Below are positions 9,124-27,505 of a DNA stretch of 29,431 bases, piece by piece (positions within the stretch are counted from its first letter, which is position 1; each line of letters begins with the position of its first letter). Source of the stretch: a virus; IMG/VR virus record IMGVR_UViG_3300020468_000047, positions 1 to 29,431 of that record; one strand, given 5' to 3'. A program made the translations under genes and the position numbers. The notes beneath the pieces were generated by a model. The model was not told the origin of the DNA. It made no database searches and saw only the letters and a list, made by a program, of their open reading frames with translations.

Positions 9124-9140
9124 TTGCTAAGTAGTAGAAA

Positions 9141-9152
9141 AGGGTTTACCCT
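9141..9152. promoter_or_regulatory. Palindrome AGGGTTTACCCT between tail genes
   Basis: This 12-mer is the exact reverse complement of the element inside the promoter before the ERF gene (27485-27496). It lies in the 50-base gap between tail tube and chaperone genes. No good promoter surrounds it on either strand, so it may be an operator acting on elongation, a remnant, or chance. Confidence 0.35.
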
Positions 9153-9173
9153 AAAGAAGATTATAAAAAATTT

Positions 9174-9548
9174 ATGTTTATTTTAAAAAAAGAAGCAACT
9201 TTCACGCATCCAATTGTGTTTTATACTCCTTCTGATGGTGGTACACAAAATAAAGAAACATTTGACGCTATTTTTAAAATTATTCCACAATCTAGAATAA
9301 ATGAAATAGGAGTACAGGCACAAAAAAAACAAAAAGAATTAGACGAAGGTATATTTGACGGTGTAAAAATATCTGACTACATGATTGCAGATGAGATATT
9401 AGTAGGGTGGGATGGTATTACAGATGGTGAAAATCCTATACCTTTTACAACTGCTACAAAAAAACAATTATTAGACATTGCAGGTTTAGCAAATATATTA
9501 GTAGAAAAATATTTTACTGAAGTTACAAAACAAAAAACAAAAAACTAG
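9174..9548 (+). CDS. Tail assembly chaperone, lambda gpG-like
   Basis: A 124-residue chaperone predicted to coat the tape measure and recruit tube subunits. Evidence is position (between tail tube and tape measure), size (lambda gpG is 140 aa), the acidic-helical composition, and the -1 slippery heptamer directly before its stop codon. The last sense codons are ACA AAA AAC, then TAG, so most ribosomes stop here and a minority shift into the following frame. No Shine-Dalgarno precedes the ATG (AAAAAATTTATG). Confidence 0.85.
   Translation: MFILKKEATFTHPIVFYTPSDGGTQNKETFDAIFKIIPQSRINEIGVQAQKKQKELDEGIFDGVKISDYMIADEILVGWDGITDGENPIPFTTATKKQLLDIAGLANILVEKYFTEVTKQKTKN
9539..9545 (+). promoter_or_regulatory. 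Programmed -1 frameshift site A AAA AAC
   Basis: In the frame of the upstream chaperone gene the bases divide as A AAA AAC and are followed at once by TAG (9546-9548). This is a textbook X XXY YYZ heptamer. After a -1 slip the next codons are CTA GAA GGG GCT and the frame stays open to 9877. No stable downstream stem was established by eye. Confidence 0.88.
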
Positions 9549-9877
9549 AAGGGGCTGCATTGTTTTGGTGCGGTGATCGTGTTATAGATGAAACAGATAA
9601 AGATGATGCAGTCCTATTTGATCAGCCCATAGCAGAAAAAAAAGAAGCACAAATGTTTGAAGTATTAGAAGAAAACTGGCTATCTATTATATTATTTTTA
9701 GATATTCAAACTCAATGGAGAATGGATCAGGGTGTTATTTATGGTCTTGATTACAACGCTATTAATTGGTTATTTGAATTGAAAAAAGACGAAATAAAAA
9801 AACCTTTAGAAATACTTGCTGACTTACAGGTATTAGAGGCTAAAATAGTAGAAACATTTAATAAAGATAATAAATAA
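9545..9877 (+). CDS. Tail assembly chaperone T extension, read by -1 frameshift
   Basis: The 110 residues encoded here (from L-E-G-A-A-L-F-W-C-G) are the T part of a G-T fusion of about 234 residues. They lie in the -1 frame relative to the upstream chaperone, which is the lambda arrangement. There is no ATG or ribosome site at the front; a TTG at 9560 could be read as a start but has no support. The WCGDRVI and EENWLSIILFLDIQTQWRMD segments are helical, as expected for the part that contacts tube subunits. Its stop is 3 bases before the tape-measure start. Confidence 0.8.
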   Translation, partial: LEGAALFWCGDRVIDETDKDDAVLFDQPIAEKKEAQMFEVLEENWLSIILFLDIQTQWRMDQGVIYGLDYNAINWLFELKKDEIKKPLEILADLQVLEAKIVETFNKDNK

Positions 9878-9879
9878 TA

Positions 9880-11607
9880 ATGGATCTTTCTACCTCCTAT
9901 ACAATTAAGGCTCAGGTACAGGGTCAAAACCAGATAGGTGGATTACAAAAAAGTTTAGGTGGCTTAAAAACAACTACTAATAATACATCAGCGGCAATGA
10001 ATAAACTAAAAACAGCCGCTAGTAATGCTTTTGGAGTTTTAAAAAATCTAGCACCTGCTATAGGTGTAGCTGCAATGGGTAAATTTGTTAGTGACACTTT
10101 ATCTGCTGGTGATCGGTTGGAAAAATTTAGTCAATCAACAGGTGTTGCAGTTCCTTTACTAGATAAATTGCGTAAAGCTTCTGAATTAGCTGGAACTGAT
10201 TTTAAGACTTTAGTAAAAACCTTTCCAATGTTAGCTAATAATATAAATCAAGCTTCATTAGGTAATGCAAAGTTAGAAACGGCTTTTGGTGATTTAGGAG
10301 TAGCTGTACATAATACTGATGGTTCTTTAAGAGCTACTGATGTAGTACTTTTAGATATTGCTGATAAATTTGCAAATATGAAAGATGGGGTAGATAAAGC
10401 AAGTTTTGCCTATGATATTTTTGGAGGAAAAACAGGTGAACAATTAATACCTTTATTAAATGGTGGTCGTGAATCTATAGAAGCTTTAAGTACAACAATG
10501 ACAGAACATGGAGTTAAAAGAATGGCTGCATTTAACGATAGTATTACTAATATTCAACACGTTTTTCAAGATTTATTCGTAGTTTTAACTAATACTTTAT
10601 TACCTGTTTTAGAAAAGTTTGTTGGTGTTATAACTTTTCTCGTAAATAAATTTAATGGTTTACCTGGCCCAGTTCAGGCAATAATTGGTTCATTTGGTAT
10701 TTTAGTTCCTTTAGTAGTAACATTAGTGCCTTTATTTGCTGCTATGGTAATTTCTATTAAAGCTATAGCAGCGGTTAAAATGGGTGTTGTAATAGCAAAA
10801 ATAACAACTGCTTTTGGTGGGGTTTTAGTTGCTGTGAAAGCGGCCATTGTAGGTTTTGCACCTTTATTAGCAGCGGGTGCGATACCAGCGGCCATTATTG
10901 GTTTAGGTGTTCTTATATTTAAATTTAGAGATGAAATAGGTCAAGCATTTCTTGCCGTTGGGGATTTTTTAGTAGGTTTAAAAGATAGTTTTGTAACTAT
11001 GATGCAAATGATAGGCGAAACAATAAAGCGGCCATTTGCAAACTTTTCAGAATTTGTTAAAAATGCATTTACTGGGGTAGTAGATGGTATTAGTAGTGCT
11101 TTTAGATCAATTCCAAGAGTAGTCACCAACGCTATAAATGCTGCAACTGAACCTATAAGAAGATTTATAAGAACTATAAATAGAGCTTTAAAAAAATTAA
11201 GCAGTTTAGCGAGAAGAAGAAGAAAAACTAGTAATAGTGGCTCAAGTAATACAGGTGGTGGCTCAAGTAATTCAAGGAGAATGGCAGAAGGTGGAGTTGT
11301 TTCTAGCCCACAATTAATATATGCAGGTGAAGCAGGTAGTGAATATGTAATACCAGCACGTAAAGCAGGTGCATTTAGTAAAAATTATTTAGCAGGTATG
11401 AGAGGTGGTGCAGCAATACCAAGATTTGCAGAAGGCGGTTATATAAGCAGTCCAAATGTAAATATTACAACTGGTGCTGTAACGCAAATGGATGGGACTA
11501 ATTTTATAACTACATCTGATTTAAAAGCGGCTGTTAAAAGTGGTATAGATCAAACGCTAACATTAATACAATCAGATTTGAAAACTAGACGATCTTTAGG
11601 TATATAA
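9880..11607 (+). CDS. Tape measure protein
   Basis: A 575-residue protein setting tail length. The N-terminal 100 residues are helical with Gly/Asn-rich repeats (QNQIGGLQKSLGGLK). A hydrophobic stretch at about residues 265-350 (VPLVVTLVPLFAAMVISIKA and following) may insert in the host membrane. A basic Ser/Gly linker follows (RRRRKTSNSG). The C-terminal GGVVSSPQLIYAGEAGSEYV and AEGGYISSPN motifs are typical of tape measures. From the usual 1.5 angstrom per residue the tail would be under about 90 nm, short for a siphovirus; lambda gpH has 853 aa. Confidence 0.92.
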   Translation: MDLSTSYTIKAQVQGQNQIGGLQKSLGGLKTTTNNTSAAMNKLKTAASNAFGVLKNLAPAIGVAAMGKFVSDTLSAGDRLEKFSQSTGVAVPLLDKLRKASELAGTDFKTLVKTFPMLANNINQASLGNAKLETAFGDLGVAVHNTDGSLRATDVVLLDIADKFANMKDGVDKASFAYDIFGGKTGEQLIPLLNGGRESIEALSTTMTEHGVKRMAAFNDSITNIQHVFQDLFVVLTNTLLPVLEKFVGVITFLVNKFNGLPGPVQAIIGSFGILVPLVVTLVPLFAAMVISIKAIAAVKMGVVIAKITTAFGGVLVAVKAAIVGFAPLLAAGAIPAAIIGLGVLIFKFRDEIGQAFLAVGDFLVGLKDSFVTMMQMIGETIKRPFANFSEFVKNAFTGVVDGISSAFRSIPRVVTNAINAATEPIRRFIRTINRALKKLSSLARRRRKTSNSGSSNTGGGSSNSRRMAEGGVVSSPQLIYAGEAGSEYVIPARKAGAFSKNYLAGMRGGAAIPRFAEGGYISSPNVNITTGAVTQMDGTNFITTSDLKAAVKSGIDQTLTLIQSDLKTRRSLGI

Positions 11608-12114
11608 ATGGCTGATTTTGATATTTTAACGTTTCTTGAATATTACCCAGATAAATCTAGTGTTTTAGATAGTAATGCTAAAAGATCTCCTACCAATGCA
11701 TATCAAAATTTTTATCAGTCTGCACAAAATCTTACAGCGGATTCAGCAATAGATCAAACTATGAATTTTACATATCTTGCTTTTGATGCTAGTGGTTATG
11801 CCTCAACAGAGGCTAATAGTATAAATGATTTAAAAATTAATATAGCTGCTACTGCTGATATCGTAGATTTAACTGAAACTGCAATGACTGGAGATCGTCT
11901 TGTAATTGCTTCATTATATGTACAATCTATAGGTCAAGATATTTTTAGTAATTCTGCTAGTCTGGTAAGTAGATTTATAGGTACAATAGAATCAGCAACA
12001 ATAAATGAAACTACTGTTATATGGAATGTAAGTACTGCAATTTCTAAGCAAAAAGCACAAGTTCCAACAAAAAAAATTAGTAGTGATTTATTAGGGAGAT
12101 TTATAGTACCATGA
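11608..12114 (+). CDS. Probable distal tail / minor tail protein
   Basis: A 168-residue beta-rich protein right after the tape measure, where lambda has minor tail genes M and L. It shows GDRLVIASLYVQSIG and ISSDLLGRFIVP, resembling the DUF1833-type tail proteins I remember at this position, but I see no decisive motif. It is expected to join the tube end to the hub. Starts immediately after the tape-measure stop and overlaps the next gene by 4 bases (ATGA). Confidence 0.5.
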   Translation: MADFDILTFLEYYPDKSSVLDSNAKRSPTNAYQNFYQSAQNLTADSAIDQTMNFTYLAFDASGYASTEANSINDLKINIAATADIVDLTETAMTGDRLVIASLYVQSIGQDIFSNSASLVSRFIGTIESATINETTVIWNVSTAISKQKAQVPTKKISSDLLGRFIVP

Positions 12115-12329
12115 ATGATTTAATTTTTGCTATAGAAATAAATGCTATTTTAGAAGATGATACAGAAGTATCAGGTGTAATAGGTCTTATTTATAACAAT
12201 GAAAGAATATATAAATTAGCAGATGGTACTGTTTTAACAAGTACAAAAAAAATAAAAACTATAAAAAGTTCTAACGAAATAGCATCGACTGAATTATTAA
12301 TAAATATAATGTCTTTAGACAAAGGGTAA
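12111..12329 (+). CDS. Small tail-tip protein of unknown function
   Basis: A 72-residue protein with a strand-rich core (IEINAILEDDTEVSGVIGL, then YKLADGTVL) and a Lys-rich middle. It is not recognised. The ATGA overlap with the gene before and its position between distal tail and hub genes suggest a tail-tip role or an assembly factor. Confidence 0.55.
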   Translation: MNDLIFAIEINAILEDDTEVSGVIGLIYNNERIYKLADGTVLTSTKKIKTIKSSNEIASTELLINIMSLDKG

Positions 12330-12349
12330 ATAATTTATACTGTTTTATT

Positions 12350-14383
12350 ATGGAAAAAAGAACTTCTTTAGCACAACAACAAAAAACAGCAAAAATAGGG
12401 CAAGATTTAAATATATTAGATGAAAGTTTACAAAATTTTAAAAAGCCTAGTTCAGATTTAGACGTTAAACAAAGAATAGCAACTACAGGGGAAACAGTAC
12501 CTATAGTTTTTGGTAAAAGAGTCAATAATATTGGTGGCGTTTGGGTACAGCCAAGTCTTTTAAAAGCAGGTACATTTAATTTTAGGCAGAGTTATTTATT
12601 TGCAATATCACAGGGTGAAATAGTTGGAACACCTACTAAAGGTAGGTCATATACAGGAATAAAGAAAATTTTATTATTAGATGACAGTACAATTACAACA
12701 ACTAATATTTATAATTCCGCTGCAACATTAGCGGCTAATCCTAATACTTGCCCTATACAAGGCACTGGCTTATTTTGTGGATATGAAAATTATTCTTATT
12801 TAGTTCCTGTAATGCCTGCGAGCAGTGGGTTTTCTATTGGTAAGCAGCCAGATCTTTCAAAAGATTATTATACATTTAATGTACTTACAGTTGGTACAGG
12901 TGATACAAGTAATTCAAATTTTCAAGTATCTGTTCAATTGTTTGATGCAGAAACAGGCACAGACGTTACAGCTAATGTTCAAGCAGGTACCCCTTTATTT
13001 AGTCAATCAGGTACTCCCGCTGGACAACCAATAACGCAGACGTGGAATACAAGAGGAAGCGGCTCTAGTGGTTTAGATGCCCCTACATTAGGTGGTTTTA
13101 CTGTTGGTCATGTTCTTAGTTTAATTAATATTACAAGTGGTAGTTTAGCAGCACCATATAATGCTGAAACTGTAGCTTCTGGTGATGTTACACAAGCAGA
13201 TTTAGATAAAATAAATGCAATCAATAGCGGAAAAACTAATTTTTATAGAAAATATACTTTTTCTTCAGTAAATAACCAAGTTGTATCAACTAGTCCAGCT
13301 AGTACAGGGACTTTAACTGGTTGTCAACTTGAATGGATTGTCGGGAACAGAAACAATATAAATACTTATACTAATTTAGACAATTCAAGTTATGCAGATA
13401 TTACTTTTTTATCTATAAGCGGTCAGTTATTCGAGTCGCCATTTGAAGGTACATACCCATCAGAGACAAAACAGGTATATGTATTTTATGACGACGGCGT
13501 TAAAGTTGATTTATACAGTGCTGGATTATCTGGTTCTTCTTATACGCAGGGTGCAAGTAATCAATTCTTAGATTTAGCAATGTTCTTATTTACAATTTAT
13601 AAAAAAATTGATGGTAATAATACCGCTGATATAGTCGCACCTGTTGAAGTTGCAAATTTGCAATCATTATCTACATTTTGTACTAATAATAATATGTTTT
13701 TTAATGGTACTGTATCTAAATCAGTAAATATAATTGATTATATTACAACAATATCACCATATTATTTTCTATTATTTTTATCTGTTGGTGGCAAATATAA
13801 ATTTTCACCTATATTGCCATTAAATTCTAGTAATCAATTTGATACTTCTGCATTAACACCTACTGCAACTTTTACAGAAGCTAATATTATAAAGGGATCA
13901 TTGCAAAAAACATTTTTAAGTGTTGAAGAAAAAAGAAGTTTTATAGCAAATTGTATTTATAATGAATGCTCAACAACAGAAATTAGTAAGCAAAAAACTG
14001 TAACAGTAAGATTTACAGCAACTACAAATGATGCACCTACTGAACAATTTGATATGTCTGATTTTTGTGTTAATGTAAATCATGCAATTTTATATGCAAA
14101 ATTTGAGCTTTCTAGAAGAAAACATAGTACACATAGTATAAGTTTTTCAAGTCCCCTAATAACAGCTTCACTAATACCTACAAATATTATAAAAGTAGAG
14201 TTACAAAGAAAAAATAGCGTTGGAGATGATAGAACAGAAACTAACTACTATCAAGTTGATTCAATTACTTATGATAATGATGGAGTTAGTAATATAGATG
14301 CTACACATTTTCCATTAAATAATAGTAATGTTTCTGAAATTACAAATGAAATGCTTACAGGCAGTTTTAGTATTTTACAATGA
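12350..14383 (+). CDS. Tail tip / central hub protein, gpJ-like
   Basis: A 677-residue protein. Near residue 47 it has TGETVPIVFGKRVNNIGGVW, the usual opening of gpJ-type tip attachment proteins. Further on a FRQSYLFAISQGEI segment and a C-terminal region with NYYQVDSITYDNDGV fit the hub fold. Lambda gpJ is 1132 aa, so this is a short form without the C-terminal receptor-binding part; the fibres downstream could supply that. It overlaps the next gene by 4 bases (ATGA). No host-specificity claim can be made from the sequence. Confidence 0.7.
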   Translation: MEKRTSLAQQQKTAKIGQDLNILDESLQNFKKPSSDLDVKQRIATTGETVPIVFGKRVNNIGGVWVQPSLLKAGTFNFRQSYLFAISQGEIVGTPTKGRSYTGIKKILLLDDSTITTTNIYNSAATLAANPNTCPIQGTGLFCGYENYSYLVPVMPASSGFSIGKQPDLSKDYYTFNVLTVGTGDTSNSNFQVSVQLFDAETGTDVTANVQAGTPLFSQSGTPAGQPITQTWNTRGSGSSGLDAPTLGGFTVGHVLSLINITSGSLAAPYNAETVASGDVTQADLDKINAINSGKTNFYRKYTFSSVNNQVVSTSPASTGTLTGCQLEWIVGNRNNINTYTNLDNSSYADITFLSISGQLFESPFEGTYPSETKQVYVFYDDGVKVDLYSAGLSGSSYTQGASNQFLDLAMFLFTIYKKIDGNNTADIVAPVEVANLQSLSTFCTNNNMFFNGTVSKSVNIIDYITTISPYYFLLFLSVGGKYKFSPILPLNSSNQFDTSALTPTATFTEANIIKGSLQKTFLSVEEKRSFIANCIYNECSTTEISKQKTVTVRFTATTNDAPTEQFDMSDFCVNVNHAILYAKFELSRRKHSTHSISFSSPLITASLIPTNIIKVELQRKNSVGDDRTETNYYQVDSITYDNDGVSNIDATHFPLNNSNVSEITNEMLTGSFSILQ

Positions 14384-14751
14384 CTACTTTCCCTTCGTTA
14401 GAACCAGAAACAAGAGCATTAGTTTATGGTAATTATCCACAAAATGTACATACTGGATTAAGTGGCGTAAATGTAAGATTTAAATTAGCTAATAAACGTG
14501 TAGAGCAAAGACTAACTATAACTTACGAATACTTATCAGAAACACAGGCTCAAAGTTTGTTAACTCATTACAATACACAAAATGGGTCAATTGAACCTTT
14601 TGACTTATCAAGCTCAGTTTGGGCTGGTTATTCTACACCACCTGTAAGCAGTTCAAATTATAAATGGCGGTATGCATCTAGTTTTCAAATTAGTTTATCT
14701 TCACCAAACAGGTATAGTACATCTATAGAGCTAATTAGCGTACCTTTATAA
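14380..14751 (+). CDS. Tail tip protein, first of a paralogous pair
   Basis: A 123-residue protein starting TTFPSLEPETRALVYGNYPQ. It shares with the next gene the order: F-P, (R/A)LxY.G(N/D)(Y/F)P, RxxNxRxxQxLTxTY/F, LSETQA or LTETQV, then THYNTQNG or THYDTQSG, F..F, W.GY..PPV, and ISVP at the end. I know similar pairs in marine phage tail modules but no settled function. The overlap as ATGA with the hub gene and TAATG with the paralogue implies coupled expression. Confidence 0.6.
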   Translation: MTTFPSLEPETRALVYGNYPQNVHTGLSGVNVRFKLANKRVEQRLTITYEYLSETQAQSLLTHYNTQNGSIEPFDLSSSVWAGYSTPPVSSSNYKWRYASSFQISLSSPNRYSTSIELISVPL

Positions 14752-15251
14752 TGGCTACATTCCCTGCAATAATACCTTCTGCCAGATTATATACACCAGG
14801 TGATTTTCCTAGTGCTATACAATCTTCATCAACTGGCACTACAACAGGTTTTAGGCGTGGTAATAGGCGTATAAATCAAACTTTACAACTTACATTTAAC
14901 AACTTAACAGAAACACAGGTAAACCTTATAAGAACACATTATGATACTCAAAGTGGTACTTTTGAAATATTTTTGCTAGACGCTAGTACATGGAATGGAT
15001 ATACTTCACCGCCTGTGCCAGTTGTAAGTGATTTTGTATGGTTATATGCAACACCTCCAACAATTTCTGATGGTATTGTAAGTAAATGGAATGTAGAAGT
15101 TGAATTAATATCAGTACCTATAGATACAGGAGATGTAATTTATGATGCTGGGGATTCTAGTGCAACAGCAAGAGTTTATATATTAGATGCCTTAACAAGT
15201 AGCTCAACACCTGCTAGAACTAATATAATAGATGCAAGGAACTCAGCTTAA
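14751..15251 (+). CDS. Tail tip protein, second of a paralogous pair
   Basis: A 166-residue protein whose first ~125 residues match the preceding gene product in order and spacing (THYDTQSGTFEIF, WNGYTSPPV, VELISVPI). The extra ~40 C-terminal residues (SSATARVYILDALTSS) have no counterpart in the first copy. Tandem duplication followed by divergence is the simple explanation. They may form a hetero-oligomer at the tail tip. No Shine-Dalgarno; start overlaps the previous stop by one base. Confidence 0.6.
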   Translation: MATFPAIIPSARLYTPGDFPSAIQSSSTGTTTGFRRGNRRINQTLQLTFNNLTETQVNLIRTHYDTQSGTFEIFLLDASTWNGYTSPPVPVVSDFVWLYATPPTISDGIVSKWNVEVELISVPIDTGDVIYDAGDSSATARVYILDALTSSSTPARTNIIDARNSA

Positions 15252-15253
15252 TT

Positions 15254-17113: not shown

Positions 17114-17114
17114 T

Positions 17115-17948: not shown

Positions 17949-17961
17949 CTAGAATATTTAT

Positions 17962-18399: not shown

Positions 18400-18408
18400 A
18401 ATATTTAG

Positions 18409-18543
18409 TTACTTAGTTTGAGTTGTCATTTGCCTAGTCATCATCCCACCAATTAAATACAATGGAATGACACTTGGCAGAATTATAAGCATAGATATAA
18501 TACTTACATGACCTATAGCCTTTAATATTGCTTCTTTGACCAT
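18409..18543 (-). CDS. Tiny membrane protein (44 aa), antisense
   Basis: On the minus strand, ATG at 18543 and TAA at 18409-18411. Residues about 12-35 are one hydrophobic segment (HVSIISMLIILPSVIPLYLI) that ends in GGMMTRQMTTQTK. Composition and shape resemble small phage membrane proteins, possibly holin-like, but there is no family evidence. Its ATG overlaps that of the plus-strand gene at 18542 within CATG. It fills the one gap between plus-strand genes here, so I think it is real, with caution because it is short. Confidence 0.5.
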   Translation of the reverse strand: MVKEAILKAIGHVSIISMLIILPSVIPLYLIGGMMTRQMTTQTK

Positions 18544-18778
18544 GAGAAAAATTCTTGACGCTTTAACCATTTTAACGTTTTTACTTTTAAGTACAACCCT
18601 AGTAACCGCTGGAATTGCTTACAGGTATTTACGGTCAGAAAATTTTAAAAGCCAAGTTATGAACCAAATACTTTCTGAAGTATCTGGACTGTTACCGAAT
18701 GTTTTAGATAAAGGTTTACCTGATATAACAGGGCCATCCGTACCAACAACAAAAATTCCTGATATTCCTAAATTATAA
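18542..18778 (+). CDS. Small N-anchored membrane protein, cyanophage-like
   Basis: A 78-residue protein (MRKILDALTILTFLLLSTTL) with an N-terminal membrane helix at residues about 6-28, a short amphipathic section (FKSQVMNQILSEVSGLLPNV) and a Pro-rich tail. I associate this layout with a small-protein family of marine cyanophages. ATG at 18542 is preferred over an upstream in-frame TTG at 18536. Its function is unknown; lysis or envelope interaction are possibilities. Confidence 0.65.
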   Translation: MRKILDALTILTFLLLSTTLVTAGIAYRYLRSENFKSQVMNQILSEVSGLLPNVLDKGLPDITGPSVPTTKIPDIPKL

Positions 18779-18784
18779 GTTTAT

Positions 18785-19983: not shown

Positions 19984-20055
19984 TGTATAAGCGATAAGCC
20001 CAGCATCATGTTATTAAGTTAGCCTCTGCTCTGTTGGATAGACTTATTACTTCTT

Positions 20056-20089
20056 TAGACAAGTAACTACCCGTAGCTTGTCTATTTTA
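20056..20089. terminator. Terminator between converging genes
   Basis: TAGACAAG (20056-20063) and CTTGTCTA (20077-20084) form an 8-bp stem. A second small stem lies inside it, CTA-CCCG-TAG. TTTT follows on the plus strand. It ends the late plus-strand operon 70 bases after its last gene. The stop codon of the converging minus gene is in the 3' arm. On the minus strand the U run is missing, so it acts mainly for the plus direction. Confidence 0.7.
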
Positions 20090-20690: not shown

Positions 20691-21109
20691 AAGGTTGTAG
20701 AAGTTTGTGTTGTTTCTATTGTTTGTGTTCGATTTATTATGCTTACTGCGTCTAAACCAGGAGCCATGAAGTTTTCTGTCAAAGAGAAAGCCTCGCCTTC
20801 GTTTACAACCTGCCACTGTGGTTTGCTTGTTAATTGAGGTGTTATCCATTCAAAATTAACTGCCCCTGCATTGCCTGTATTTTGACTTGTTGTATAGGTT
20901 GCTTCTGGGGAAATATAGGAATCAGTTTTAATATTAGATCCTGTAACTGAATATGCATAGCCAGAGTTATAGTTTTCAGTAATGATAACTTCATCTATTC
21001 TGCTAATACTTTTAGAATTTGATTGTATTTGGTTGGCAGCAAATCTTGGAGTTGTAGCTTTTGCATCTGAACTATAAAAAGCGATAAACAAAAGCAATAA
21101 CCATTTCAT
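20681..21109 (-). CDS. Secreted/surface protein, cyanophage-like
   Basis: A 142-residue protein with a clear signal peptide (MKWLLLLFIAFYSSDAKA) and a mature part rich in Ser/Thr. The motif ISRIDEVIITENYNSGYAYS is of a type I remember in marine cyanophage exported proteins. It shares VNEGEAFS..E with VNTGDAFS..E of the next gene upstream, suggesting a common fold. Starts as TAATG with the previous stop. Function unknown. Confidence 0.65.
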   Translation of the reverse strand: MKWLLLLFIAFYSSDAKATTPRFAANQIQSNSKSISRIDEVIITENYNSGYAYSVTGSNIKTDSYISPEATYTTSQNTGNAGAVNFEWITPQLTSKPQWQVVNEGEAFSLTENFMAPGLDAVSIINRTQTIETTQTSTTLFQ

Positions 21110-21636
21110 TAATCCAAGCCAAGAGTAATACTAGTTTGTAGCGTAGCTGTTGTACCAGCACCCATATCAGCCAAGTTAACAGTAAACGCACCACCGCTAT
21201 CCATTGTGATTGCTACAGAACCAGGGTCACCTCCAGAGATAACAGTGTTTTTACCAAGAAGAGGCAGTGATGGAACCGCCCCATTTGTTACTGTGGCAGA
21301 TAGTAAACTTGGAACTGCATCTGCTGCAATATAGGATTCTGAAGCAGAAAATGCATCGCCTGTATTTACGATGTTAAAGCTAGTGTCGTAATCAATAGTT
21401 GGAACACCACTAGCAATACCAGCATCAGCTAAATCAAGAGAACCGATTTGACCAGCTACTGTATTTGCTTTAGGAGCTACGTTTGTACCAGCTACACTAA
21501 TAGCTGCTGCAATTCTTTCTGAAGTAGCGGAAGCACCTAATGTAGAGACACTTGCTACTGATTGAAGCGTATGAGTGATGTCTGCAAAACTAGCTGTTGG
21601 AAGTGCTAGTAAAATCAAAGGAAGAAACTTTTTCAT
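21109..21636 (-). CDS. Secreted beta-rich protein, cyanophage-like
   Basis: A 175-residue protein with a classical signal peptide (MKKFLPLILLALPTASFA, cut before DITH). The mature part is Gly/Ala/Ser/Thr-rich beta structure: ATSERIAAAISVAGTNVAPK, IVNTGDAFSASESYIA, then GAGTTATLQTSITLGL at the end. This order strongly recalls a family of small marine cyanophage proteins of unknown role; adhesin or virion-surface function has been a natural guess. Its start overlaps the previous stop by 4 bases (ATGA). Confidence 0.7.
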   Translation of the reverse strand: MKKFLPLILLALPTASFADITHTLQSVASVSTLGASATSERIAAAISVAGTNVAPKANTVAGQIGSLDLADAGIASGVPTIDYDTSFNIVNTGDAFSASESYIAADAVPSLLSATVTNGAVPSLPLLGKNTVISGGDPGSVAITMDSGGAFTVNLADMGAGTTATLQTSITLGLD

Positions 21637-22007
21637 TTTTTGGATGATGGGGGGTCAATTACTTCAGCACCTTCAATTTTGATAGGTGTAATTACTCTTA
21701 TAGTCTGAACCATACCGTCACTTTGTGCAACTTTATCTTCTTTATTTTCTTTTTTACCACCATTTTTGCGTGATGCCTCAATTCCAAAAGTTGAAATCGC
21801 AGCAGTCAAAAGCGAAGCAGGGAAGGTTATATCTTTTGGTTCGTTACTGTAACCAGGGAGAGAAATATAGTTAAGGGATACTATAAAGCCACTCCAAACG
21901 ACAATACCTAAACGAACAAATAGACTGATAATTGCTAGTTGCTCCTCTTTGTCATCAAGACCTTCTTTTATTTTTTGAAGGGGGTTTTTCTTTTTTTCTT
22001 CTGCCAT
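21633..22007 (-). CDS. Two-helix membrane protein, cyanophage-like
   Basis: A 124-residue protein: charged N-terminus (MAEEKKKNPLQKIKEGLDDK), two membrane segments at about residues 24-48 (IISLFVRLGIVVWSGFIVSL) and 62-75 (FPASLLTAAISTFGI), then a Lys/Glu-rich tail. The pattern KNPLQKIKE..D.KEEQ.AI is familiar to me from marine cyanophages. It has a holin-like shape, two helices and charged ends, but no proof. It leads a tightly coupled four-gene minus-strand unit. Confidence 0.65.
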   Translation of the reverse strand: MAEEKKKNPLQKIKEGLDDKEEQLAIISLFVRLGIVVWSGFIVSLNYISLPGYSNEPKDITFPASLLTAAISTFGIEASRKNGGKKENKEDKVAQSDGMVQTIRVITPIKIEGAEVIDPPSSKK

Positions 22008-22053
22008 AATTAGTTTTATTAGTCATACTAGACATAATTAAGGATTTAAGCAA

Positions 22054-22215
22054 ATGACAGAGGTACAAGCAGCTTTACTAGGAGCAGCAGCTACAGCTTT
22101 TGTTATGGTGTTGTCAAACATGAGTAACCGTAGAGAACGTACCATAATAGATATTTACAACAGATTAAACCAGTTATCGCAAGCGGTTAGCAGATTAGAA
22201 GGCCAAAACCGCTAA
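22054..22215 (+). CDS. Tiny membrane/coiled-coil protein (53 aa)
   Basis: The gene encodes MTEVQAALLGAAATAFVMVL, then a basic turn (SNMSNRRERT) and a short amphipathic helix ending LEGQNR. One N-terminal membrane helix with a coiled-coil tail is typical of small phage proteins beside lysis or exported-protein genes. It diverges from the minus-strand cassette with only 46 bases between ATGs. A weak GGATTTAAG lies before the ATG. Confidence 0.65.
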   Translation: MTEVQAALLGAAATAFVMVLSNMSNRRERTIIDIYNRLNQLSQAVSRLEGQNR

Positions 22216-22249
22216 TGTTTGGTATCTTTTATATAAATAACATAACTAA

Positions 22250-22432
22250 ATGCTAAAAATTTTAAAACCTATACTACTTACATTTCTTTCTTCTTCTGCT
22301 TGTAAGGATTTAATTATTAGTCTTTTAAAAGAAATTTGCAAAAAAAGTTCTAATGATCTTGATAATAAAGCTGTAGAATTTCTAGAACAGCAATTATTTC
22401 CTAATAGAAAAATTAGTAGTTTACCTAGATAG
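22250..22432 (+). CDS. Small cyanophage-like protein (60 aa)
   Basis: A 60-residue protein (MLKILKPILLTFLSSSACKD, LLKEICKKSSNDLDNKAVEF, LEQQLFPNR). The order LKP.L..FL, LL.......D..AV..L...LFP is one I recall in marine cyanobacterial phages, usually near small membrane proteins. The amphipathic N-terminal helix may associate with membranes. Function unknown. It is followed directly by a promoter-like sequence and a terminator. Confidence 0.6.
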   Translation: MLKILKPILLTFLSSSACKDLIISLLKEICKKSSNDLDNKAVEFLEQQLFPNRKISSLPR

Positions 22433-22435
22433 CAC

Positions 22436-22464
22436 TTGCATTAAATGTAAATATAATATATTTT
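22436..22464 (+). promoter_or_regulatory. Candidate promoter for a short transcript
   Basis: TTGCAT (22436-22441), 17 bases and TATTTT (22459-22464), with a TATAAT also at 22452-22457 (poor spacing). Transcription would start near 22471 and reach the terminator at 22534, about 64 bases without an open frame. This would make a small RNA; the AT-rich sequence makes a chance promoter quite possible. Confidence 0.35.
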
Positions 22465-22500
22465 TGGTATGCCTATGATACGCAAAGCAGTGGGCAACTT

Positions 22501-22534
22501 AAACCCTTTAGATGGATTCCCCTAAGGGGTTTTT
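22501..22534 (+). terminator. Strong rho-independent terminator
   Basis: AAACCCTTTAG (22501-22511) pairs with CTAAGGGGTTT (22522-22532) over 11 bp with one G-U, across a 10-base loop, and five T end the element (22530-22534). It ends plus-strand transcription of the two small genes or of the putative short RNA. Confidence 0.85.
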
Positions 22535-22538
22535 GTAT

Positions 22539-22650
22539 GTCGGGAGATCGATCAAGTCCAATACTTGCCCTGTCTTTCCTATCCTTTCTTAGGTTTTGTA
22601 TAACTCTCAAGTTAAAGAAATCCACTTATTTAACTATCAGGCTTCCCGAC
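22539..22650. ncRNA. Candidate structured RNA, four-helix junction
   Basis: GTCGGGA (22539-22545) and TCCCGAC (22644-22650) form a 7-bp closing helix. Between them three hairpins can form: CAAGT/ACTTG, CCTA/TAGG and AGTTAAA/TTTAACT. The 112-base segment has no convincing ORF on either strand and lies between a terminator and the end of the leftward operon. The shape resembles a tRNA, but the usual D- and T-arm sequences are absent. The strand is not settled. Confidence 0.4.
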
Positions 22651-22660
22651 TATTTACATA

Positions 22661-22975
22661 TTAAAAAGGTAATGTTGATTGATTAAAAGATTCTGGTTTT
22701 TTTGGTAAACACCATAGATGTTCTTTTTTTCCATAGTTACCTATTACATATTCTTTTGTTTTTACTAGTTTGCCTTCATTAGATAAGTTTGTCATAGCTC
22801 GCCTAATAGAGGTTATAGGACAATTGATGTTAAGGATAGAAAGCACCATAGATGGACTAAGTGGCTTTTCATGCTGTAAAAAGCAGTTAATAATTTTTTG
22901 TTCTTGTGTTTTAGCTTTAGATATAGATTCAGCTAGTTCACTTGCATCTTCATTAATCGTATTATAAAAGGTCAT
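22661..22975 (-). CDS. Winged-helix DNA-binding protein
   Basis: A 104-residue protein. Residues about 24-92 make a winged helix: QEQKIINCFLQHEKPLSPSM, ITSIRRAMTNLSNEGKL as recognition helix, then the wing (VKTKEY...KKEHLWCL). Such proteins are frequent in phages and act as local regulators. Its own ATG is preceded by an excellent Shine-Dalgarno (AAGGAGGT) embedded in the end of the previous gene, with which it shares ATGA. The C-terminus, STLPF, resembles the SSB tip. The last gene of the leftward unit. Confidence 0.75.
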   Translation of the reverse strand: MTFYNTINEDASELAESISKAKTQEQKIINCFLQHEKPLSPSMVLSILNINCPITSIRRAMTNLSNEGKLVKTKEYVIGNYGKKEHLWCLPKKPESFNQSTLPF

Positions 22976-23112
22976 TTGTTTACCTCCTTACAAGCTAGTT
23001 CGTAGTTAGTTAATTGGTTATTACACGATATAACTGTCATGTCATATAGAGAAGATGAAAGGGCTGTATAAAACAACCCTGACGCTGCTAACATCATTAA
23101 AAAATTAGACAT
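22972..23112 (-). CDS. Tiny membrane or exported protein (46 aa)
   Basis: On the minus strand ATG at 23112, stop TGA at 22972-22974. It reads MSNFLMMLAASGLFYTALSS and ends with NYELACKEVNK; one hydrophobic segment near the N-terminus. GGAGG lies 9 bases before the ATG. It overlaps both neighbours (8 bases upstream, 3 bases downstream), and its last codons hold the ribosome site of the winged-helix gene. Translation here may serve to couple the next gene. Confidence 0.6.
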   Translation of the reverse strand: MSNFLMMLAASGLFYTALSSSLYDMTVISCNNQLTNYELACKEVNK

Positions 23113-23749
23113 TTTTGGTTTCCTCCATATTTTTCATTAGCTCAAATGCAAGATCAGATATTTTTTTTGATGCATCTGCATAATCTATTGCATCTTGCTT
23201 AGTCTCAAAACTTGCTCTTTCCTGTAAAAACTCTTTTGTAAAATGAACCCACATTAATCTTTTGCTTATGCCATCGTCATACCACTCAAGATTAATAACA
23301 CTTTTCTTTTCTAAGCCATTAAGTATTTTCCATATTTGTTTTCTAGTAAATAATTTATGCTTTTCCATTTCATTCATATAACTTGGCGCAAACTTATAAC
23401 CATCTTCGCAATTTAACATCCTATGCATATATTCATAGTCAGTATCACAAACAGAAAATAAATTACATCTATCTGTAAATTGACCTATAAGATTAAGAAA
23501 AATATTCTCTATATCTGTAAATACAAAATTATCTGTTGATACATTTTCATTTAAAATAATAAATTTCTTTTTATCATCTCTAAGAAAATGAATACCTACT
23601 CTAGATCCATATTTTGTTTTATCTGAATAAAGACCTTCTGTAGTAAAATCAGTATCAAAATGTTTTATATCTTTTACATCTCTATGGTGTCTTTTTTTGT
23701 CTAGTTCTTTACATTTTGTTTGGAACTGCTCTTTTGTTAAAGTAGTCAT
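23105..23749 (-). CDS. Unknown protein with C-terminal winged-helix-like segment
   Basis: A 214-residue protein from ATG 23749. A longer frame opens at 23794, but that ATG lies inside the promoter, upstream of the expected transcript start. AGAGG is 8 bases before the 23749 ATG. The N-terminus is basic (KELDKKRHHRDVKD). Residues about 130-175 (KHKLFTRKQIWKILNGLEKK, then strands with ISKRLMWVHFTKEF) look like a winged helix. It could be the regulator bound to the palindromes, or a replication initiator; I cannot decide. It has its own operator-carrying promoter. Confidence 0.65.
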   Translation of the reverse strand: MTTLTKEQFQTKCKELDKKRHHRDVKDIKHFDTDFTTEGLYSDKTKYGSRVGIHFLRDDKKKFIILNENVSTDNFVFTDIENIFLNLIGQFTDRCNLFSVCDTDYEYMHRMLNCEDGYKFAPSYMNEMEKHKLFTRKQIWKILNGLEKKSVINLEWYDDGISKRLMWVHFTKEFLQERASFETKQDAIDYADASKKISDLAFELMKNMEETKNV

Positions 23750-23782
23750 TTGGAAAACCTCTCGGTTGTTTGGTACATTCTT

Positions 23783-23811
23783 AATATACATCAAGGGTAT
23801 ACCCCTGTCAA
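23783..23811 (-). promoter_or_regulatory. Leftward promoter with palindromic operator
   Basis: On the minus strand TTGACA (23806-23811), a spacer of exactly 17 bases, and TATATT (23783-23788). The palindrome GGGTATACCC (23795-23804) lies wholly in the spacer. The -35 is a perfect consensus and overlaps the end of the Mom-like gene. A bound regulator would block polymerase. Confidence 0.8.
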
Positions 23812-24554
23812 GTTCTTTTAGGATATTCTTTTATATATTCCTGTATTTTAGATTTATAATATTTCTTTTCTGTCTTATTTCCTAAAAAATAAAAATATCT
23901 ACGCTTACTTTTCTGTGGTATAAATTTTGCATCTGGAAACATTTTTAATATTTCTTCTTTTTTTTGCGTTCCTAATTTTTGTCTTATTGATCTAGCACCA
24001 TATAATTTACCTTTTATTTCTACTCCAAATCTATCACTATCTCTATCATTTACTTTTGGGTTATTTTCACGCATAGACCCTATATATTTAAAATTACACG
24101 CTTGATAGATAGTACCTATTTCACCTGCTAACTCATCTACAGTTGCAGTAACTACTTTGTATTTATCAGGTAGCATTTTCATAGATTGGGTTATTAACTT
24201 ACTTGCACTATGTGGATGTGACCAATGAACACACGCACCCCTACTTAGTAAAATAATTTTTCCTGTATAATCAAATTTATCCCAATGTCCTAAGTTTTCA
24301 CTATATTCAGTGCTATAAACAACCGCACCACCTAAATTACCTTCAAAGTAAATACCATAACAATACTGAACCATAGCAGGCATACATTGTAACCATTCAT
24401 ATCTTTTTATTAAATTAGTAGCTGTTCTTACGTCTATTTCTTGTACAACTGCTTTTTTTATATCTGTATCTACTTTTTCCCACCATCTACCAAATAAATT
24501 ATGTGCATCTTCTACTTCCATCTGATCTTTTATTAACTTCTGATGTGCAATCAT
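23808..24554 (-). CDS. Mom-like GNAT protein, possible DNA base modification
   Basis: A 248-residue protein of GNAT-like outline. Near residue 66-81 YGIYFEGNLGGAVVYS, then LLSRGACVHWSHPHSASKLI (102-121), TVDELAGEIGTIYQACNFKY (138-157), then GKLYGARSIRQKLGT, and a C-terminal KSKRRYFYFLGNK and EYPKR. This order matches my memory of the Mom family, whose Mu member converts adenine in DNA to a carbamoylmethyl form and so blocks restriction. D140 and Y150 are candidate functional residues. Length fits (Mu Mom about 230 aa). It overlaps the nuclease-like gene by 4 bases (ATGA). Confidence 0.6.
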   Translation of the reverse strand: MIAHQKLIKDQMEVEDAHNLFGRWWEKVDTDIKKAVVQEIDVRTATNLIKRYEWLQCMPAMVQYCYGIYFEGNLGGAVVYSTEYSENLGHWDKFDYTGKIILLSRGACVHWSHPHSASKLITQSMKMLPDKYKVVTATVDELAGEIGTIYQACNFKYIGSMRENNPKVNDRDSDRFGVEIKGKLYGARSIRQKLGTQKKEEILKMFPDAKFIPQKSKRRYFYFLGNKTEKKYYKSKIQEYIKEYPKRT

Positions 24555-24922
24555 TTTATTAATTTTTTAAGATGTTCAATTTCATTTATAAGTCTTGCAA
24601 ATTGGTCAATAGTTTGAACAACACGCCAATTATCACCTTCTGCACAATTTGGCCTTTTATTAAACCTAACCATAGTAATAGCATGATCTACTTTTGCGTT
24701 TATTTTTTGTTGTTCTGATTCTCTAGGTTTTCTTAATACTGCTTCTGTTTTATTTTTCATGTCAGTTACCTGTACAACAGTATTTGGAATACCAGTTAAA
24801 TCACCTTTATCTTTTTCCATACCTGCCCCAAATCGTCTTTCAACTTCATAACCTGTTGCTTTTGACAGATAAATACAGGCTTCTCTTTCTGCCCTATCGC
24901 CCTTATTCTTTTGTGCGTTCAT
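24551..24922 (-). CDS. PD-(D/E)XK nuclease-like, resolvase type
   Basis: A 123-residue protein. The N-terminal helix (KNKGDRAEREACIYLS), YEVERRFGAG, then KDKGDLTGIP with D41, and VVQVTDMKN fit the small Holliday-junction-resolvase-like nucleases of phages. In relatives I remember, the last motif has E-x-K; here the corresponding positions are Q51 and T53, with D54-M55-K56 next. The nuclease may use the shifted D-x-K or be inactive. It lies between a coiled-coil gene and the Mom-like gene, overlapping each by 4 bases. Confidence 0.6.
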   Translation of the reverse strand: MNAQKNKGDRAEREACIYLSKATGYEVERRFGAGMEKDKGDLTGIPNTVVQVTDMKNKTEAVLRKPRESEQQKINAKVDHAITMVRFNKRPNCAEGDNWRVVQTIDQFARLINEIEHLKKLIK

Positions 24923-25188
24923 TTTTCTAATTCCTTAATTTTCTTTTTTAGTGCTTCATACTCTACTAAATATTCCTTAGTAGCAAACTCTGATTTATGG
25001 TTAAACATATAGCGATCACTTAAAGCACCTAACTGTACATGTAAATCATCAATCATTTTTTGTTTCTTTTCTTTAAATTCTTTACTTAATGCGTCTGGTT
25101 CTTTTGGGTTCTTAGTCCAATCAGCTACTAAACTAAGCAACTCTTTCACCCTTTTAAATGCCTGTTCTACTCTTTCTGTTGTTTTCAT
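24919..25188 (-). CDS. Helical protein of unknown function (89 aa)
   Basis: An 89-residue, charged, probably coiled-coil protein from MKTTERVEQAFKRVKELL to LKKKIKELEK. I choose ATG 25188 because it forms ATGA with the preceding stop; an upstream ATG at 25200 would add four residues. No family recognised. It is coupled on both sides by 4-base overlaps. Confidence 0.6.
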   Translation of the reverse strand: MKTTERVEQAFKRVKELLSLVADWTKNPKEPDALSKEFKEKKQKMIDDLHVQLGALSDRYMFNHKSEFATKEYLVEYEALKKKIKELEK

Positions 25189-25499
25189 CGCATCGCCCAT
25201 GTAAAGCCAGTTTCTAATTTAATTGCTATTCCTTCTTCTCTTTCCTGTTGTTCTTTATCTTCAATCGCATTTATCATATCTTTTTTAAATTGCTTTGTAG
25301 TATCACTATATTCCCACTTCTCAGGTTTGCGTTTGCGTGTTGCTTTAACACCATCAATACTAAAAGAACTCATAATAATACCTTCTTGATAATACTTTTC
25401 TAATATCATCTTCTTTTCTGTTATTTGTGTTTCTAATTCTTTTATTTGCAGTTGTGAAACTTTTATCTGCCTTAATAATTGTTCTGGTTGTACGTTCAT
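25185..25499 (-). CDS. Coiled-coil protein of unknown function (104 aa)
   Basis: A 104-residue protein. Residues 1-40 form a coiled coil (LLRQIKVSQLQIKELETQI), followed by a small beta segment (SFSIDGVKATRKRKPEKWEY), then an acidic helix (AIEDKEQQEREEGIAI) and a short end FTWAMR. This layout is common among small phage proteins near recombination genes, whose functions are mostly unknown. It overlaps the next gene by 4 bases. Only 2 bases separate it from the preceding stop. Confidence 0.6.
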   Translation of the reverse strand: MNVQPEQLLRQIKVSQLQIKELETQITEKKMILEKYYQEGIIMSSFSIDGVKATRKRKPEKWEYSDTTKQFKKDMINAIEDKEQQEREEGIAIKLETGFTWAMR

Positions 25500-25501
25500 G
25501 A

Positions 25502-25663
25502 TTAATAAAATTTATGCTCAGGATAAAGATCAGGTTGATAATCATCAGGTAAATAAAACAACCATTCTAAATACATTTTTGCAGCGTTCATAATTTGTCT
25601 ATCATCAAATTTAGCTAACCATTCTTCTCGGTCAATTTGTTCTAGTTCTTCTTCAAATGACAT
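25502..25663 (-). CDS. Small acidic protein (53 aa)
   Basis: Minus-strand ATG at 25663, TAA at 25502-25504. It reads MSFEEELEQIDREEWLAKFD, RQIMNAAKMYLEWLFYL, PDDYQPDLYPEHKFY: an acidic helix, a hydrophobic helix and a Tyr/Pro-rich end. I do not recognise it. It is the first gene after the operator-carrying promoter at 25699-25727 and would lead this transcript. Confidence 0.6.
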   Translation of the reverse strand: MSFEEELEQIDREEWLAKFDDRQIMNAAKMYLEWLFYLPDDYQPDLYPEHKFY

Positions 25664-25698
25664 AATTGTAAATTAATAAAGAACAACAGTTAAACATT

Positions 25699-25727
25699 AG
25701 TATGGGGTATACCCTCATATAATGCAA
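25699..25727 (-). promoter_or_regulatory. Leftward promoter with GGGTATACCC operator
   Basis: Minus strand TTGCAT (25722-25727), 17 bases, CATACT (25699-25704). GGGTATACCC (25705-25714) directly abuts the -10 box. A TATAAT on the plus strand (25718-25723) next to the same palindrome would point into the convergent nuclease gene and lacks a -35. The minus orientation is preferred because it faces genes from 25663 down. The -10 is weak (4 of 6). Confidence 0.55.
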
Positions 25728-25733
25728 CCCTTA

Positions 25734-26360
25734 CTAAAACTTTACCTGTTTATTAAAGTATAAACCCCTTGCCTCTTCATAATCATACATACATTCTGCA
25801 GGGCTATATTCTTGAGTTTTTATACCATCAGGTGTTATATAAATAATCCTACAAGTAAATAGAGTTATATCAGGATAGTTTTGATTTAACAAAGATACAT
25901 AACCACCCATCTGTAAACTATGATTCTTTTTCTTATATACTGCTTGTGTTTTGTAATCTGCAAGACATAATGCACCTGTATCTTTATGCTGCAAAATAAC
26001 ATCACAACTACCTGCAATATCTCTTTTTCTGTCAATCATTCTTAGTTCATTAACAACAGGTTCCCAAGTATTCCACATTCTATAATTTATAAGATGCTCA
26101 ACCCATCCTGAAAACTCTTTTGCATACGCTAGTGCTAGTGTTTTATCTTTTGTTTCACACCATATTTGTACAGCCTCATGTATTGTTGTACCTCTAGCCG
26201 CTGCTTTTTCCATGTTTTTACTGACAAAGTCATTTGGTTTTATAACATCACTAATAGATCTTGATACATATTTCTTACGTTTTAAATCGTAGTATTTATG
26301 TGGTTCTGGTAAGAACTGTACGAATGGATCTTGTACAAGAATATTTTTAATATTATCCAT
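25734..26360 (-). CDS. PD-(D/E)XK nuclease, RecB/Cas4-like exonuclease
   Basis: A 208-residue nuclease. Motifs in order: GTTIHEAVQIW with H61, NELRMI with E105, GSCDVIL with D120, LADYKTQ with D135-x-K137, and LQMGGY with Q150 and Y154. These are the metal-binding and catalytic positions of the RecB-type nuclease fold. It would resect DNA for annealing by the ERF protein and SSB encoded on the other strand. It overlaps the previous gene by 8 bases. Cas4 is the same fold but has an iron-sulphur cluster; no suitable cysteine set is present. Confidence 0.85.
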   Translation of the reverse strand: MDNIKNILVQDPFVQFLPEPHKYYDLKRKKYVSRSISDVIKPNDFVSKNMEKAAARGTTIHEAVQIWCETKDKTLALAYAKEFSGWVEHLINYRMWNTWEPVVNELRMIDRKRDIAGSCDVILQHKDTGALCLADYKTQAVYKKKNHSLQMGGYVSLLNQNYPDITLFTCRIIYITPDGIKTQEYSPAECMYDYEEARGLYFNKQVKF

Positions 26361-26616
26361 CTATTACAGGATCAAAAGTTACTTTACCTGTAAGACTATT
26401 AATATATTTTGGTAATTTATGTGTTGGTATAGAAGGTCTTGCACCATATTGAGTTTTTTGTATTCTTTTCCATTTGCCTGTACCAGTTTCCCTTTCATAA
26501 CCCATAGCCAAGAACCAACCACTAGGCGGTGTATCTAAGTCTTCTATCTTTATAAGACCTTTACTAATCATTCTTCTTAGTGTTCTTTTTGCACTGTTGC
26601 TAAATAAAATATCCAT
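26353..26616 (-). CDS. Small basic protein of unknown function (87 aa)
   Basis: An 87-residue basic protein. Residues about 5-30 (NSAKRTLRRMISKGLIKIED) may form a DNA-binding helix pair and are followed by PPSGWFLAMGYERETGTGKW. No family recognised. Overlaps of 1 base upstream and 8 bases downstream join it with the RHH-like and nuclease genes, so a role in DNA handling is plausible. Confidence 0.6.
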   Translation of the reverse strand: MDILFSNSAKRTLRRMISKGLIKIEDLDTPPSGWFLAMGYERETGTGKWKRIQKTQYGARPSIPTHKLPKYINSLTGKVTFDPVIDG

Positions 26617-27197
26617 TAGATTATGTTCCCCATGTCATCAAACTGTACAACCTTTTGATTTGGATGTGTAGATGTTTGTTCTGGTTCTTTATTAAACCTG
26701 TTTATACGTTTCTGTTGTTCTTCATAGTTACTAAGTTTTAAACCTTTCCAAGTACCTGCAAGCACTCCAGCGTCTAACTGGTCTTTCAAAGTTTGTTCAC
26801 CATACTTATCTATAAACTTTCTATATTCTGTTATCTGTAGTTTCCAAGCCTGTATAGATTTAGAACCTTTCTTAACTTTCCAGAAGTCAAGTATTAATTC
26901 TTCTAAGTGTATTAAGTCTTCTGGTATTATCTTTTCTTGTTTTTCTTTTTTATTAATTTTTTCTTTTTGTTCTTTTGTTTCTAACTCTTTCTTATCTTGT
27001 TCCTGTTCTTCTAAGTCTTTATTATCTTTATATATATAGGTTACATTATCTGTCAAATCTTCTTCTTTTTGTAATTTAGCGTTGTATGCCTCTTCTAAAA
27101 GCATATTAATAAACCCATTGGTTGTAATGTATTTGGGCTTTATAGCTGCGATCTTGTCTATTAAAGATCTGTCGATAGTTGGTCGAGTAGTGGTCAT
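26616..27197 (-). CDS. DNA-binding-like protein with coiled-coil linker
   Basis: A 193-residue protein. Residues about 5-38 (RPTIDRSLIDKIAAIKPKYI, then NGFINMLLEEAYNA) are like a ribbon-helix-helix. An extremely charged Lys/Glu-rich linker lies at about 45-90. The C-terminal domain (DFWKVKKGSKSIQAWKLQIT, YGEQTLKDQLDAGVLAGTWK) is similar to domains in phage replication or primosome-like proteins I recall, but I cannot name one. First gene of the leftward block; its ATG lies 25 bases from the ATGTAC-A-GTACAT palindrome. Confidence 0.55.
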   Translation of the reverse strand: MTTTRPTIDRSLIDKIAAIKPKYITTNGFINMLLEEAYNAKLQKEEDLTDNVTYIYKDNKDLEEQEQDKKELETKEQKEKINKKEKQEKIIPEDLIHLEELILDFWKVKKGSKSIQAWKLQITEYRKFIDKYGEQTLKDQLDAGVLAGTWKGLKLSNYEEQQKRINRFNKEPEQTSTHPNQKVVQFDDMGNII

Positions 27198-27221
27198 AAA
27201 TGGGACATAAAGGGACGATGT

Positions 27222-27234
27222 ATGTACAGTACAT
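27222..27234. promoter_or_regulatory. Palindrome ATGTACAGTACAT between divergent genes
   Basis: ATGTAC, one base, GTACAT: a perfect 13-base dyad in the 109-base region between the leftward and rightward blocks. TACATGTA lies near 27270 and TGTACA near 27350. It differs from the GGGTATACCC elements, so a second regulator is likely. The leftward promoter itself was not resolved. Confidence 0.5.
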
Positions 27235-27306
27235 GAACACAGGTAGAACAGGTTTACAACAGCCTACTACATGTATTGAATTAAAACTTTACAAACGCTA
27301 CATATA

Positions 27307-27504
27307 ATGTTATGTTTAGCACATAAGTCTACTAATGTTATGTCTTGTACATTAGATAAAAATAGACAGAAAAAACTGATTAGAGATCAGTTACAAGGAA
27401 TCAATGACCCTTTTGAGTTATTAGCAGAAGCGTTGGCAGATAATCAACGATTAAGACAGATTATTAACAACCACAATTGCCATAAGGGTAAACCCTCGAT
27501 ATAA
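27307..27504 (+). CDS. Small early protein (65 or 54 aa)
   Basis: An open frame from ATG 27307 or ATG 27340. The first ATG overlaps a TATAAT (27303-27308), so if that box is the -10 the real start is 27340. The C-terminal part (KKLIRDQLQGINDPFELLAE, ALADNQRLRQIINNH) is helical. Cro-like or other regulator is possible, with no direct evidence. Its end runs into the ERF promoter. Confidence 0.5.
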   Translation: MLCLAHKSTNVMSCTLDKNRQKKLIRDQLQGINDPFELLAEALADNQRLRQIINNHNCHKGKPSI

Positions 27505-27505
27505 T
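27477..27505 (+). promoter_or_regulatory. ERF-operon promoter with operator
   Basis: TTGCCA (27477-27482), a 17-base spacer, and consensus TATAAT (27500-27505). GGGTAAACCC (27486-27495) lies in the spacer, flanked by A and T to make the same 12-mer as at 9141-9152. Transcription should begin about 27512, giving a leader of about 15 bases. Confidence 0.8.

Follow-up and report, generated by a model that had tools for sequence, protein, structure and literature searches.

What acts at a ten-base palindrome that recurs inside promoters on both strands of a phage genome? The question is raised by IMG/VR virus record IMGVR_UViG_3300020468_000047, a stretch of 29,431 bp which we analyzed at its full length and call the window. 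The initial annotation of this DNA had placed the palindrome within the 17-base spacers of three promoters and had proposed that one regulator controls them all. We find that the operator lies between the -35 and -10 hexamers of sigma-70-type promoters of the same genes throughout a whole phage group, and that its central bases covary with two residues, predicted to contact DNA, in the strand of a small protein encoded at 28152-28367 on the plus strand. From the sequences compared we infer, with reasonable confidence, that a repressor encoded by the phage has GGGTWWACCC as its operator, binds there and represses, and that this repressor is most likely the 28152 protein.

The pattern GGGTAWACCC occurs at exactly four places in the window (9142, 23795, 25705 and 27486), and the looser GGGTWWACCC adds no site anywhere in it. 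In 3000 first-order Markov simulations four or more sites were never reached; 2845 simulated sequences had no site, 152 had one and three had two. All four sites are exact, and three of them lie in promoter spacers, just as the initial annotation had it. The operator GGGTAAACCC at 27486-27495 lies in the promoter TTGCCA-17-TATAAT (27477-27505, plus strand, 11 of 12 consensus positions) of an operon coding for an ERF protein, the 28152 protein and a single-strand binding protein (SSB); its hexamers are kept in relatives. The operator GGGTATACCC at 23795-23804 is found in the promoter TTGACA-17-TATATT (23783-23811, minus strand, again 11 of 12), which belongs to a repeated cassette preceding a cargo gene. 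A second GGGTATACCC at 25705-25714 lies in the promoter TTGCAT-17-CATACT of the RusA/Mom operon (25699-25727, minus strand). The three promoters had been described as alike in spacing. They share the 17-base spacing, but the last matches the consensus at 7 of 12 positions only and is weak by this measure, and the distance of the site from the -35 hexamer differs among the three spacers, being 1 base at 23795, 7 at 25705 and 3 at 27486. The hexamers and spacing of the 25699-25727 promoter are conserved, as TTGCAT-7-GGGTATACCC-CATACT recurs in relatives. An alternative plus-strand reading of the same region (TTAGTA-15-TATAAT) was dropped, since the conserved hexamers are those of the minus strand. 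The promoters at 23783-23811 and 27477-27505 are the two best sigma-70 matches between positions 20000 and 29431; 10-mers drawn at random from the window lie within a promoter as good as 11 of 12 in just 0.125% of cases. At 18474 there is a strong promoter that has no site, and it is not conserved in relatives.

The fourth site, GGGTTTACCC at 9142-9151, has the gene of the major tail protein on one side and the tail-assembly gene 9174 on the other, and it reads GGGTAAACCC on the minus strand. The 12-mer at 9141-9152 had been taken for a further copy; it is one, but as the reverse complement and not on the same strand. A possible promoter TTGCTA-17-TACCCT (9124-9152, plus strand), whose -10 hexamer overlaps the operator, is speculative; TACCCT is a poor -10 at the 17-base spacing. 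In relatives a TTGC(A/T) element is found at a constant 12 bases from the corresponding site.

The window has the gene order of the Synechococcus siphoviruses S-CBS1 and S-CBS3, and its TerL is 45% identical to theirs; judged by TerL and gene order these are the closest named phages. Packaging, head and tail genes on the plus strand are followed by a replication and accessory region which encodes ERF, exonuclease, RusA-like, Mom-like and SSB proteins. For the comparison we used the relatives of ERF (25 contigs) and read 19 contigs of the group at greater length, which together with the window gives 20 genomes. The group consists of ocean phages, probably related to cyanobacterial phages, and the kinship with the S-CBS phages, taken together with a protein relative in phage P-SSP7 (see below), would point to picocyanobacteria as hosts.

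Across the 20 genomes the sites and their promoters are kept at the same genes. The site precedes ERF in all 16 genomes holding ERF (in one genome the strict pattern picked up an unrelated 10-mer as well), it occupies the same slot before gene 25502 in 17 of 18 genomes, and a TTGACA-type promoter with the operator is present in 19 of 20. In the gap that separates gene 9174 from the gene of the major tail protein, the strict pattern finds the site in 13 of 15 relatives, and in the other two it was recognized by eye. Since this conserved site lies among the tail genes, the presumed early regulon is not purely early. In several relatives the block from 25502 to 22972 is inverted and moved, and the operator travels along with it.

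It is very improbable that no regulator is involved and that the palindromes are merely inherited parts of a repeated promoter or are conserved through coding. The cassette is indeed kept over its whole length, and the last codons of a small conserved open reading frame (27307-27504, plus strand) run across the ERF promoter and the 27486 site. The same 10-mer, however, occurs in promoters that are otherwise unlike (TTGCAT-7, TTGCCA-3, TTGACA-1 and the tail site), and in two contigs of the group, L007 and L015, its centre has changed jointly at several sites. We rejected the view that coding alone preserves the 27486 site, as the last residues encoded by the reading frame vary while the palindrome core stays.

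The two contigs with the changed centre lead to the protein. The proposed repressor (28152-28367, plus strand, start at 28152 or 28164) is a ribbon-helix-helix-like protein of 67-71 amino acids, encoded between ERF and SSB and present in each of the 13 genomes in which this region is covered. In 28 contigs with a readable 28152 protein and a TTGACA/TTxATA cassette carrying GGGTATACCC, this protein always has LVSSKL, LVSAKL or LVQSKL; GGGTTAACCC is found in none of the contigs with these proteins. L007 and L015 have MVGAKL instead, and here five sites read GGGTTAACCC or GGGTTAACCT and GGGTATACCC is absent. A third MVGAKL contig, L022, is a fragment without the cassette, and a hybrid GGGTAAACC occurs with both kinds of protein. 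Of seven GGGTTAACCC-type matches, two come from known members of the group (L007 and L015); the other five are presumed to be chance.

We then scanned the core families for diagnostic columns, that is, for residues which L007 and L015 have in common and which no contig with the TATA operator has. The 28152 protein has four such columns out of 53, two of them in the strand (L26M and S28G). No such column occurs in ERF, SSB, exonuclease, RusA, 26616, 27307, 26353, 24919 or 25185. A single one occurs in each of 21633 and 25502, and the tail gene 28704 reaches 10 of 219. In the tree of the 28152 protein the sequences with MVGAKL cluster together (91/96), whereas the ERF, SSB and exonuclease trees keep the genomes concerned apart. 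Sites at the same genes, their movement with the inverted operon and their change together with one protein thus give good support to the proposal of a single regulator acting on dispersed promoters of both strands.

None of the three regulators suggested by the initial annotation fits these data. The protein at 27307-27504 is conserved, but it lacks operator-diagnostic columns and its tree does not group the two genomes with the altered operator. The winged-helix-like protein at 22661-22975 (minus strand, phrog_9069) is found in three of the 20 genomes, and most of its 72 relatives in IMG/VR come from genomes without the site. For the protein at 23105-23749 the scan gave no relative, and the one related protein known (in L174) is cassette cargo. 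Both 22661 and 23105 are absent from most of the relatives that bear the site. The same operator and regulon could be served by another core protein of the phage, namely 26616, 27307, 26353, 25185 or 24919, each of which is kept in almost every genome of the group; the N-terminus of 26616 even looks ribbon-helix-helix-like by eye. We consider this unlikely, as none of these proteins has a residue that tracks the operator or a tree that groups the altered-operator genomes, and 26616 occurs with two different N-termini while the operator is unchanged.

With the 28152 protein as the most likely repressor, its fold becomes of interest. In its sequence pattern it resembles ribbon-helix-helix proteins of the Arc/CopG kind. 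Members of this family have a short N-terminal strand ahead of two helices, and as obligate dimers they reach into the major groove with a two-stranded sheet. With hhalign the 28152 protein aligns in register with Arc, Mnt and CopG (P 0.0011, probability 20%, against reference sequences entered by hand). A match to SvtR has an E-value of 0.005, with an unrelated mannosidase adjacent at 0.007; the Arc-like matches in PHROG are weak. In a second-look structural aligner the CopG, PutA and StnY domains align with a model of the protein over their full length (Z 4.1-4.6). No named phage with a related protein was found by tblastn. We take the ribbon-helix-helix fold as a well-founded guess rather than a finding. 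In the alignment with Arc, residues L26, S28 and K30 fall on Gln9, Asn11 and Arg13, the base-contacting residues of Arc. L26 and S28 differ between the operator types and K30 is invariant. The alignment was noticed after the covariation had been found and serves as a consistency check, not as an independent prediction. The structure of the Arc-operator complex and the work on Arc/Mnt specificity are cited in PMC3325190. As the covariation in the two genomes suggests, the strand residues may set the specificity for the operator. Two natural alleles of the operator, with TATA or TTAA at the centre, go with two residues in a protein of about 70 amino acids, which makes for a specificity code that can be tested directly.

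Several points weigh against this assignment. Gene 28704, two genes downstream, also groups L007 and L015 in its tree; only these two genomes have the altered operator, and mosaic phages share segments by descent, so that shared ancestry of one segment may be the source of the covariation. Both AlphaFold2 monomer models contain both helices but lack the strand, the Foldseek E-values are above 1 and the second of the two models gave no structural match in the second-look aligner. The hhalign probability is 20%, and this against the sequences entered by hand. Finally, a lone palindrome of 10 bp is a short target for ribbon-helix-helix proteins, which often bind paired sites.

The palindrome might also be bound by a host regulator which the phage exploits. 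We regard this as improbable, because the promoter-operator pattern has seven matches in a scan of one genome for each of 84,980 species, none of them in a cyanobacterium, and because the operator allele follows the tree of a phage gene.

The direction of the regulation is taken from the position of the sites. A site that lies between near-consensus hexamers usually represses, and promoters of this quality need no help. That the palindrome is instead an activator site, or part of a regulator-dependent switch which turns the early genes off and the tail genes on, seems to us rather improbable, even though the conserved copy before the tail-assembly genes comes with a poor -10 and a ribbon-helix-helix protein, AmrZ, is described as both activator and repressor (PMC3325190).

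We suggest that a repressor encoded at 28152-28367 would work in the following steps. After entry of the phage DNA the host RNA polymerase would fire the operator promoters, that is, those of the ERF/SSB operon, the RusA/Mom operon and the cargo genes. Expression of the ERF operon would then cause the repressor to build up, and its dimer would fill the promoter spacers and exclude the polymerase. The operator promoters would thereby be turned down together, including the repressor's own; such autorepression suggests itself because a site precedes the operon that holds the 28152 gene. At the tail-assembly gene the site may in like manner hold back or time a promoter of tail genes. An autoregulated, Arc/Cro-like repressor, acting on replication and accessory promoters and perhaps also on one tail-gene promoter, is most likely.

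The site at 23795 is part of a larger conserved unit. The sequence TTGACANGGGTATACCC is present in 86 IMG/VR stretches, versus seven for a control pattern with a TTAA centre. We left out 13 unrelated-looking stretches, took in variants with TTTATA, TTAACA and TTGCAA, and arrived at about 101 distinct cassette copies. These lie upstream of about 33 clusters of unrelated small first genes, where unrelated means no detectable mutual similarity (blastp, E 1e-3) and some genes may be mispredicted reading frames. The palindrome lies within the promoter, about 50 bases upstream of the start codon, and the leader with ACAACCGAGAGGTTTTCCAAATG is conserved as far as the start codon. In the window the conserved leader with the ribosome-binding site (consensus of the copies ACCGAGAGGTTTTCCAA) occupies 23750-23782 on the minus strand and is followed by the cargo gene 23105-23749 (minus strand), a relative of which, in L174, is found behind the same cassette. 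A blastn search with a 51-mer detected the cassette in no named phage. Tentatively, these about 65 bp of promoter, operator, leader and ribosome-binding site could be a portable, repressor-controlled expression site, behind near-identical copies of which small genes are exchanged by recombination, while in mosaic genomes the allele of the repressor and the type of operator change over jointly; we would put this forward as a possibility that we ourselves rather doubt. If it were true, each arriving cargo gene would fall at once under one co-evolving mini-repressor, and the repeated cassette suggests a way for small phages to gain accessory genes yet keep control of them.

Some neighbouring features deserve mention. 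The reading frame 22972-23112 (minus strand), found in every one of the 20 genomes, codes for a peptide of 41-46 amino acids whose N-terminal stretch is hydrophobic (MSNFLMMLAASGLFYTALSSSLYDMTV...); it often directly follows the cassette. Just upstream of the TTTATA-class promoters (L012, L021, L026 and others) there is a second conserved element of inverted-repeat character (about TTACAATTTTGTAACA). The operon behind the 25705 operator includes a Mom-like DNA modification protein (23808-24554, minus strand; Pfam Mom 1.3e-22), which is also found in G002, G005 and G015 and not in the other relatives. In the ERF operon, the first gene (27527-28171, plus strand) codes for an ERF-family single-strand annealing protein (Pfam ERF 2.3e-13), and the SSB-like protein after the proposed repressor (28360-28704, plus strand) belongs to the same family as the annotated SSB of S-CBS3. 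The winged-helix-like protein 22661 is apparently a widespread marine phage gene; its 72 close relatives in IMG/VR are mostly from phages without the palindrome, and Prochlorococcus phage P-SSP7 has a relative with 53% identity. Gene 26616 (26616-27197, minus strand) combines one C-terminal part with either of two N-termini (RPTIDRSLIDKI... or LRTRIDDNITEKI...), both ribbon-helix-helix-like by eye. The divergent gap at 27200-27300, between 26616 and 27307, has no GGGTWWACCC and carries a different near-palindrome, TGTACAGTACA; the exonuclease operon may be under another regulator.

In the open-access literature we found no account of an operator, repressor or regulon for uncultured S-CBS-like marine phages. 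S-CBS1 and S-CBS3 themselves lack GGGTAWACCC and show no convincing repeated palindrome as an operator of their own. In S-CBS3, gp32 is a positional and ribbon-helix-helix-like counterpart of the 28152 protein next to SSB, but with a different strand (QVQARL); in S-CBS1 no counterpart was seen as far as examined. The Arc protein of phage P22 is likewise a tiny phage repressor, with its operator between the -35 and -10 of the ant promoter, and in a weak alignment the 28152 protein is in register with the strand and helices of Arc. The similarity is too weak to claim descent from Arc. Further, P22 has one Arc operator, whereas here a short perfect palindrome is found at several promoters and before many cargo genes, and among the ten early-region proteins of the window scanned, and these only, no integrase, CI-like protein or prophage gene was noticed. 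The stoperators of the cluster A mycobacteriophages provide a precedent for one phage repressor with many dispersed sites whose motif varies between relatives (PMC6550527, PMC9283540). Those repressors, however, confer temperate immunity and recognize asymmetric 13-bp sites, up to about 30 of them, most of which share one orientation and many of which lie outside promoters (PMC6550527, PMC9283540), whereas we find 10-bp palindromes, four to six per genome, with three of the four in the window located in promoter spacers. Cluster K mycobacteriophages have repeated start-associated sequences (SAS/ESAS) which, like the cassette here, come shortly before the start codons of many genes unrelated to each other, in their case non-structural ones (PMC3203893). 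The SAS is a non-palindromic 13-bp sequence 3-7 bases before the start codon which has been proposed to act in translation initiation and for which no binding protein is known (PMC3203893); the cassette comprises a whole sigma-70 promoter with palindromic operator and leader, and it comes with a candidate protein. Taken together, the shared palindrome of these phages is real and well conserved, and the 28152 protein accounts for it better than the three candidates of the initial annotation do; the unusual feature of the proposed operator-repressor regulon is the repeated cassette.

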